Of a stretch of DNA of 64,000 nt, positions 30,890 through 33,149 are shown piece by piece. The stretch's first letter is position 1, and each line of letters starts with the position of its first letter. This DNA is from Isosphaeraceae bacterium EP7 (GTDB lineage Bacteria; Planctomycetota; Planctomycetia; Isosphaerales; Isosphaeraceae). The stretch is from positions 2,181,174-2,245,173 of the forward strand of contig CP151667.1 of NCBI GenBank assembly GCA_038400315.1, written 5' to 3'. Below the pieces are notes generated by a model, which saw only the letters and a program-made list of their open reading frames with translations, was not told where the DNA came from and did no database searches. Position numbers and translations under genes: made by a program.

Positions 30890-31852
30890 ATGTGGCCCGA
30901 CGCTTCTAATGTCCCGGAGATAACGACGGTGGACGAGAATTGGGAGAGCACGGCTAAGCCGTCTCAGGTGATGCGAGAGATCCTGATCGTCCCGCGGTCG
31001 ACGCCGGAGGTCCCGATCGCACTCCTGGCAGGAATCATCATCGGCGGCTTGATGGCCATGACCGGTGCGGTCATGGGGCCCAGGCCCATGGGGGTGATTC
31101 TCATCATGCTAGGGGCGCCGCTCGCCGCTTTCTGCTCGCTCGGGTTTCTGGTCAGCCTGTTCGGGTTGTTCACGGTCAACCCGAACGAGGCGAAGGTGCT
31201 CCAGCTCTTCGGCAACTACAAGGGGACGGTGCGCGAGCCGGGGCTGCGGTGGATCAACCCGTTCTTCACCAAGACGCGAATCTCGCTTCGGGTGCGGAAC
31301 TTCGAGAGCGAGCGGCTGAAGGTCAACGACCTGGCGGGCAACCCGATCGAGATCGCCGCCGTGGTGGTCTGGCGGGTGGTCGACACGGCCGAGGCCCTCT
31401 TCCACGTGGAAGATTACAACAACTTCGTCCACGTCCAGAGCGAGTCGGCCCTGCGCAACATGGCGCTCAGCTATCCCTACGACGCACACATCGAAGGGGA
31501 AATCTCGCTGCGGGGCCACACGGCGGAGGTGGCCGAGCACCTGAAGACGGAGATCCAGGACCGTCTCTCGCAGGCGGGCGTCGAGGTGCTGGAGGCGCGG
31601 ATCAGCCACCTGGCCTACGCATCCGAGATCGCCCACGCGATGCTCCAGCGCCAGCAGGCCGGGGCGGTCATCGCGGCCCGGCAGATGATCGTCGAGGGGG
31701 CCGTGGGCATGGTCGAGATGGCGCTGGAACGGCTCTCACACAAGCAGATCGTCGACCTGGACAACGACAAGAAGGCCGCGCTGGTGAGCAACCTCCTGGT
31801 CGTGCTCTGCTCAGACCGGGGAACCCAGCCGGTTGTGAACGCGGGAAAGTGA
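30890..31852 (+). CDS. SPFH-domain (stomatin/prohibitin-like) membrane protein
   Basis: The 320-aa protein has two close membrane helices (about 41-63 and 69-99) and then an SPFH/band 7 domain (about 95-270). [20 protein letters not shown] and GLRWINPFF begin the domain, and a long helical segment ([20 protein letters not shown]) precedes the end. Such proteins oligomerise in membrane microdomains and often control membrane proteases. It starts 63 bp after the Gfo/Idh gene but is functionally unrelated. No NfeD partner is nearby. Confidence 0.9.
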
Positions 31853-31969: not shown

Positions 31970-32407
31970 TCAGGCAAGATGGGGCTTGAGGTCGCAGAGG
32001 GGGACGCTGGGGTTGGGGTCGGCCAGCAGCTCGGCGAGGGTGGTGTCGCGGAAGGCTTTCTCGACGGCGGCAAGGGCGTCATCCATCCGCCGGTGCAGGG
32101 GGCAGAGGTGGACGCCGTGCGACTTGAGGTCGAGCGGGCAGGTCTTGATGCGGCGGATCGGCTCGACGGCGTTGATGACGTCCAGCAGCGTCAGGTCGGC
32201 GGGGGCCTTCTCCAGCGCCATGCCGCCGCCGATGCCGCGCTGCGAGCGGACGATCCCGGAGCGGGCCAGGCCTTGCAGGACTTTCGACAGGTACGCCTTG
32301 GGGACCTTGGTCGCGGCGGAAATCTGGTCGGTCGTGCGCGCAGAGGGCGCCACGTCGGCCAGGTAGACGACCGCCCTCAGGGCGTATTCCACCGTCTGGG
32401 AGAACAT
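31970..32407 (-). CDS. Rrf2-family transcriptional regulator (NsrR/IscR-like)
   Basis: The 145-aa protein has the Rrf2 winged helix ([20 protein letters not shown] start; [20 protein letters not shown], 28-47, recognition region; RGIGGGMAL wing, 57-65). Cysteines 90 and 102 in [13 protein letters not shown] match the spacing of the first and third cluster ligands of IscR/NsrR; the middle Cys is missing, and Cys138 is the only other. A Fe-S cluster that senses nitric oxide or redox state is thus likely but not assured. It is divergent from a protoglobin gene, with a palindrome between them. Confidence 0.9.
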
Positions 32408-32431
32408 CGCGGCCGGACCTCCCGGCTAAAT

Positions 32432-32447
32432 TGGATCTTGACATCCA
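32432..32447. promoter_or_regulatory. candidate Rrf2 operator between rrf2 and protoglobin genes
   Basis: TGGAT-CTTGAC-ATCCA is an exact inverted repeat of 5-bp arms with a 6-bp centre. A second half-site pair nearby (TTGGAT at 32431 and ATCCAA at 32481-32486) is spaced in inverted orientation. The centre contains the -35 hexamer of the globin promoter, so a bound regulator would block it. Confidence 0.55.
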
Positions 32448-32466
32448 GATTAGCGGCGATAACCTA
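32438..32466 (+). promoter_or_regulatory. candidate promoter of the protoglobin gene
   Basis: TTGACA at 32438-32443 is a perfect -35. The -10 is weak (TAACCT at 32460-32465, 16 bp spacing), which suits a promoter that is regulated. The globin start is at 32541 behind GAGAGGGGGGAGA. Confidence 0.5.
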
Positions 32467-32540
32467 AATCGGACAAGGTCATCCAATGATCTCAGGCGGG
32501 GTGGTTCCCGTCAAATTCGATTCGCGAGAGGGGGGAGATC

Positions 32541-33149
32541 GTGCGACAGATCGACGAGGCTCGGCTGGAGGCGGACACGGCGTATCGGTTCGGGTATGTG
32601 GCGGAATTCATCGGGTTCGGCCCCGAGGACGTCGACGCGATCCACGGCGCGGCGGGCGCACTCGCGGGGCTGGTCCCGGGCCTGGTCGACGCGGTGTACG
32701 AGAAGCTTCAGGGGTACGACGCGACCTGGAGGCACTTCGTCCCACGGCAGTCGGGCTATGAGGGGAACGTGCCCACGAGCCTATCCGAGTTGACGGTGGA
32801 TCACGAGCAGATCAAGTTTCGCAAGGAGCACCTGGGCCGCTATCTCGTGCGCCTGGTGACGCAGAAGTACGACGCGAAGATGGTGGGCTACCTGGACATG
32901 GTCGGCAAGATGCACACGCCAGGTGCGGGCTCGGCCAGCCTGGACGTCCCGCTCGTACAGATGAATTCGCTGATGGGTTTCGTGGCCGATGCCCTGACCG
33001 CGACGATCCTCGGCCTGGGCCTCGATCGCGACCGCGAGGTGGCCACCGTCCGCGCGTTCGGCAAGCTCCTCTGGATCCAGAACGACCTGATCAACCGCCA
33101 CTACCAGGGGTCCAGGGTCGCGGAATTGGCGATCGGTTCCGTGGCCTGA
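32541..33149 (+). CDS. protoglobin (globin-sensor-type heme protein)
   Basis: The 202-aa protein is a free-standing protoglobin domain, the heme-binding unit of globin-coupled sensors, with no fused signalling domain. The probable proximal ligand is His125 in MVGKMHTPG; other typical parts are the YRFGYVAEFIGF lead, the GYDATWRHFVPR turn, RKEHLGRYLVRLV and the final LLWIQNDLINRHY helix. It starts with GTG 32541 behind a strong GAGAGGGGGGAGA. Such globins bind O2, CO or NO. Divergence from an NsrR/IscR-like Rrf2 gene, with an operator on its promoter, points to control by NO or redox stress. Confidence 0.9.
   Translation: MRQIDEARLEADTAYRFGYVAEFIGFGPEDVDAIHGAAGALAGLVPGLVDAVYEKLQGYDATWRHFVPRQSGYEGNVPTSLSELTVDHEQIKFRKEHLGRYLVRLVTQKYDAKMVGYLDMVGKMHTPGAGSASLDVPLVQMNSLMGFVADALTATILGLGLDRDREVATVRAFGKLLWIQNDLINRHYQGSRVAELAIGSVA

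Follow-up and report, generated by a model that had tools for sequence, protein, structure and literature searches.

A paired operator between a divergent Rrf2-family regulator and a single-domain protoglobin: a putative nitrogen-oxide stress switch in Planctomycetia

The stretch of DNA analysed here, a window of 64 kb, contains a gene for an Rrf2-family regulator (31970-32407, minus strand; 145 aa; PF02082, E 2.9e-29) divergent from a gene for a single-domain protoglobin (32541-33149, plus strand; 202 aa, GTG start; PF11563, E 1.2e-35), and the whole is best explained as a local two-operator Rrf2 repressor switch for an NO-responsive globin, a reading to which we give a probability of roughly two in three. 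An Rrf2 dimer would occupy two equivalent operators, the first covering the -35 element and the second the start point of the globin gene, shutting that gene and probably repressing rrf2 as well. NO, or another reactive nitrogen or redox signal, would alter an Fe-S cluster with ligands among residues E7, C90, C102 and H105, and the altered repressor would leave, allowing protoglobin to be made and NO or nitrogen oxides to be removed or converted. Comparison of sequences supports the gene pair, the two operators, their spacing, the overlap with the promoter and the nature of the other targets; the Fe-S cluster with its ligands, NO as the signal and the chemistry of the globin are what we infer. 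A preliminary description of this DNA had noted a divergent Rrf2 gene and a free-standing protoglobin, and the reading frames are as described there, with both family profiles matched and no output domain in the 202 aa of the globin. That observation is real and is extended here, and its interpretation is partly supported, being borne out in outline. Just downstream of the Rrf2 gene, and converging on it, is an SPFH/Band 7 gene (window positions 30890-31852), which is not known to belong to the conserved unit.

Two candidate operators lie between the divergent genes. The first, TGGATCTTGACATCCA (32432-32447), is the exact dyad TGGAT-N6-ATCCA reported earlier with TTGACA inside it; this hexamer (32438-32443, plus strand) is read as the -35 element of the globin promoter, which the operator overlaps, and the dyad is conserved in relatives. 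The second, CGGACAAGGTCATCCA (32470-32485), was missed in the preliminary description; its arms are conserved, and it lies over the probable transcription start of the globin gene, placed near 32472. A probable -10 element, TAACCT (32460-32465, plus strand), follows TTGACA after a 16-bp spacer; its weakness explains why a simple scan for promoters missed that of the globin gene. With site 1 at the -35 element and site 2 at the likely start, a bound protein would block polymerase at both, and since the start codon of rrf2 is 24 bp away from one operator and 62 bp from the other, the Rrf2 protein is probably self-repressing. The Rrf2 regulator very probably binds both of these matching sites, and the two-site repressor part of the proposal is well supported by the conservation of the sites; repression, as opposed to activation, would be the outcome. 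TGGATCTTGACATCCA is the sole exact dyad in the window, with 0 matches in 100 shuffles (0 expected), and the 7.2-Mb host genome contains five including that of the window; three of the four others were examined, and all are inside coding sequence. Conservation and the shuffles together rule out a chance dyad.

A scan of species genomes gave 80 homologous globin loci, and at 68 of these the divergent arrangement is retained, with Rrf2 proteins 58-76% identical to that of the window. The pair extends across several families of the class, and within the window's own family it is present in relatives of several genera; all loci are from Planctomycetota or from assemblies titled as other phyla (L104, L108, L121, L123, L126, L129). 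Among 81 distinct intergenic regions a strict GGAY-N6-RTCC site is found in 55, where shuffles give 0.9 on average and 5 at most. Paired sites separated by 36-52 bp, with no more than one mismatch over the two, are found in 47, where shuffles give 0.04 on average and 1 at most. The dyad is therefore both conserved and double, and the operator first described over the globin promoter survives as two operators, not one; neither loss of the pair nor loss of the dyad in relatives, the two refuting conditions named in the preliminary description, is what the comparison shows. The start-to-start distance is most commonly 44-45 bp, about four helical turns, and is 38 bp in the window. Across the 47 two-site intergenic regions operator 1 takes the form AAA-n-TGGAY-NTTGAC-ATCCA-n-TTT, in which TTGAC is almost always embedded, TTGACA keeps the same six positions (87-100% per position) and a TA....T hexamer is enriched 16-17 bp after TTGAC. 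Each of the two sites is preceded by AAA and followed by TTT, with conservation of 85-100% at the best positions, and the search pattern did not extend to these A-rich and T-rich flanks. The full operator unit, approximately AAAYTGGAY-N6-RTCCARTTT, is about the size of known Rrf2 operators, which measure 23 bp in NsrR and have an 11-3-11 layout in RsrR, with wings that touch A/T-rich minor grooves (PMC9338935; PMC5015018).

The same comparison bears on the notion that these are conserved neighbours without regulation, the dyad being a shared promoter or bidirectional element and not an Rrf2 operator. TTGACA does belong to the dyad, and the evidence is all sequence-based; however, the second site includes no globin -35 element and its arms are equally conserved, the same double site recurs at other promoters, many of them beside an Rrf2 homologue, and the dyad is missing where globins of the same family (L014-L020) have no Rrf2 gene beside them. 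We consider this notion very improbable. Some individual loci have peculiarities of their own. In one same-family relative (G011) the globin is spread over three reading frames (L021, L024, L026), so that the gene is probably broken, and the globin matches L014-L016 are each reported with one stop. The gap between the Rrf2 and globin genes reaches about 1.5 kb at L190, L122 and L132, where the double site remains beside the globin gene, and at L190 one stretch fits the double-site pattern on both strands.

The genes found behind the double operator in relatives indicate what the regulator may respond to. Of 397 class genomes searched for the pattern TTGACATCC-N22-48-GGAY-N6-RTCC, 84 contain it, the reversed-pattern control giving 4 matches in all; in the host genome it occurs once, in the window. 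Sixty-seven matches were examined for neighbouring genes. Protoglobin follows in 33, usually with the Rrf2 gene divergent, and the second commonest target (17 of 67; e.g. L040, L144, L148, L183) is a small single c-heme gene of a Tll0287-like family, an assignment made by PF11845 on one of the 17 and for the rest by similarity to that one; at L013 Rrf2 and globin are separated by a c-heme gene of similar kind. Four matches precede a cytochrome c gene followed by narG and narH (L169, L170, L171, L201; identified by Pfam on L169, narJ being seen wherever the sequence extends far enough); L169 and L171 also have an Rrf2 homologue in the vicinity. In two matches the double operator stands ahead of an hcp-protoglobin operon, from which an Rrf2 gene diverges. 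Three have no assigned target, and eight are in coding DNA, as expected of chance hits. The four target types, protoglobin, the hcp-protoglobin operon, cytochrome c-narGHJ and the Tll0287-like c-heme protein, point to NO or nitrate/nitrite stress. Counting against the NO reading, the Tll0287-like protein, the most frequent second target, has no link to NO that we know of. A regulator of nitrate/nitrite respiration, with Rrf2 sensing nitrite, nitrate or low O2 and preparing nitrate reduction while protoglobin removes by-product NO, would suit the double operator at the four cytochrome c-narGHJ loci, two of them with an Rrf2 homologue near, and NsrR was itself first described as nitrite-sensitive (PMC1274295); but these loci make up just 4 of the 67 examined matches, and neither narH nor nirK gave a match in the window's genome; we regard this alternative as improbable.

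Nitrogen-oxide stress as the common theme is supported best by the linkage of hcp with protoglobin. A survey of 297 class genomes left 30 hcp loci to read, and in 27 of these protoglobin adjoins hcp, directly downstream in tandem at 21 and divergent at 6 (L209-L236). Regulators that respond to NO typically have hcp among their targets (PMC1274295), and a literature search found no earlier report of the linkage in Planctomycetia. The strict site is present in 12 of the 30 hcp promoters and missing from 18, which counts against the proposal. At four loci (L217, L223, L224, L226) the gene divergent from hcp-protoglobin instead encodes a more remote member of the Rrf2 family (31-36% identity). Three of these proteins were read over their whole length and have the canonical trio of cysteines, C-x6-C-x5-C; the promoters of the four loci have another dyad, CATTC-N10-GAATG, an apparent replacement of the regulator on the same hcp-protoglobin genes.

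It is clear from profile scores that the window's regulator belongs to the Rrf2 family (PF02082, 102.3 bits against a cut-off of 30; TIGR00738, 104.9 against 73.3). Assignment to NsrR, IscR or RirA is rejected, the scores lying below every curated cut-off, with 53.2 bits against 182 for the NCBIfam NsrR equivalog and 40.5 against 207.6 for that of IscR. In 129 distinct homologues E7, C90, C102 and H105 are effectively invariant, H97 is invariant, and C138 in the C-terminal tail is near-invariant (117/129). By spacing we take C90 and C102 to be the outer cysteines of IscR and NsrR and H105 to be the IscR histidine, the IscR ligands being C92, C98 and C104 plus His. The cysteines claimed earlier at IscR/NsrR positions thus hold for this outer pair; the middle one is absent from all 129 homologues, none having any cysteine at 91-101, so that C90 and C102 are the only two in the cluster region. 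The protein therefore fails as NsrR on three clustered cysteine ligands and as IscR on three cysteines plus His. It resembles IscR, a regulator of Fe-S homeostasis, in that C90, C102 and H105 align by spacing with C92, C104 and the following His, but the equivalent of C98 is absent and no isc or suf targets were seen among the genes behind the operator. E7 is aligned to Asp8 of ScNsrR, which is one of the ligands of the cluster there (PMC5411485). An Fe-S cluster with a mixed ligand set is plausible by analogy, with RsrR as the precedent; since the middle cysteine of known cluster-binding Rrf2 proteins is missing, the cluster is not assured.

In function the closest parallel may be NsrR of Streptomyces coelicolor and E. 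coli, which shares the Rrf2 fold and is an NO-sensing repressor, as is proposed here, with a small local regulon including a globin (Hmp) and hcp and with a dyad operator, some 23 bp long, that covers the promoter (PMC9338935, PMC1274295). Operator sites across relatives fit an NsrR-type regulon of NO-stress genes in protoglobin and hcp-protoglobin. The differences are the operator itself (gATGyAT-N5-ATrCATc in NsrR, GGAY-N6-RTCC here), the protoglobin target, the absent middle cysteine and the NCBIfam score below cut-off. The Rrf2 protein would work like NsrR as a putative local NO repressor of the globin, yet it is not to be filed as NsrR, because the profile score and the three-cysteine feature both fail. 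The NO or redox switch first suggested has thus gained on its NO side, through the operators at hcp-protoglobin and cytochrome c-narGHJ, and lost the cysteine set of NsrR or IscR.

One alternative is an RsrR-like redox or respiratory switch that is not NO-specific, in which a [2Fe-2S] cluster would read the redox state of an electron carrier or oxygen, the heme proteins (protoglobin, Tll0287-like c-heme protein, cytochrome c-nar) would be co-regulated and the globin would serve oxygen or redox handling. RsrR of Streptomyces venezuelae, a [2Fe-2S] redox sensor, is the closest solved structure by sequence (E 3e-11) and has two full sites between divergent genes (PMC5015018); its non-standard ligands are Cys, Glu and His (PMC5015018; Volbeda 2019 via PMC9338935). 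The conserved E7, C90, C102 and H105 would fit this ligand set better than that of NsrR, but their spacing differs from RsrR, as do the 11-3-11 operator and the targets of the latter, NmrA-type and NAD(P)H genes. The 17 c-heme targets favour such a redox switch; the hcp and nar targets and the 27/30 hcp-protoglobin linkage fit nitrogen oxides better, and we judge the redox switch unlikely. A broader form of the NO reading is that a distinct class of Rrf2 NO sensor, with a two-Cys/His/Glu cluster in place of one with three Cys, controls the regulon for nitrogen-oxide stress in Planctomycetia by way of paired GGAY-N6-RTCC operators; the main effector would be protoglobin, by itself or together with Hcp. 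We put this forward tentatively, at somewhat short of even odds; if true, protoglobins would gain a physiological role.

The host genome has six Rrf2 genes and one protoglobin. Given its single double operator, the Rrf2 protein seems to be a local regulator with a single target; in this genome that may be the globin alone, and a genome-wide regulon is rejected on the same count. One-mismatch single sites are so common (26 matches, with 7 in the control) that they do not allow interpretation. No hcp, NarH C-terminal domain or nirK (Cu nitrite reductase) was detectable in the host genome, and thus no internal source of NO was found, which counts against the NO reading; local denitrification as that source is rejected, with no match to narH or nirK. 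The search for a Tll0287-like target in the host gave no match but was equally silent in control genomes, and so does not prove absence. Within the NO reading, the host Rrf2 and globin look like a guard against NO from outside.

The globin itself scores 123 bits against a PF11563 cut-off of 25. Its H125 aligns with the proximal heme histidine of 2w31 and 5ohe and is invariant in 17/17 globins of the pairs and in 14/14 of a wider set. Direct phmmer comparison with the PDB gave no match, while profile and fold searches did: the model (pLDDT 85) has the 3/3 globin fold, with TM 0.6-0.9 to sensor globins, and matches the AfGcHK globin sensor domain and the protoglobin of Methanosarcina acetivorans. 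With the M. acetivorans and Aeropyrum pernix protoglobins it shares globin class, fold and free-standing form, but the identity in structural alignment is 13-14%; to our knowledge no Rrf2 regulator is known for the genes of either. In vitro the M. acetivorans protein acts as a nitrite reductase and as a peroxynitrite isomerase (PMC4020757). In the proposed switch the window's globin would remove or convert NO or nitrogen oxides.

No paper joining protoglobin with Rrf2 was found, and titles and abstracts of the literature joining protoglobin with NsrR, Hcp or Planctomycetes bear no sign of this system; a nitrogen-oxide stress switch of this kind looks not to have been described yet. The role of protoglobin is still called unknown (PMC3680402), and a globin with a dedicated regulator, a two-site operator and an hcp partner offers a directly testable physiological setting. 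The proposed switch would add a regulator type to the NO-responsive set of NsrR, NorR, HcpR and DNR/NnrR, a comparative study of which does not mention planctomycetes (PMC1274295), and it raises the question of how a cluster could be bound by an Rrf2 protein that lacks the middle cysteine. A variation on the locus is seen at L028 (G034), where, in a genome with five globin matches, a tandem pair of protoglobin genes stands beside an Rrf2 gene and the operators have diverged.
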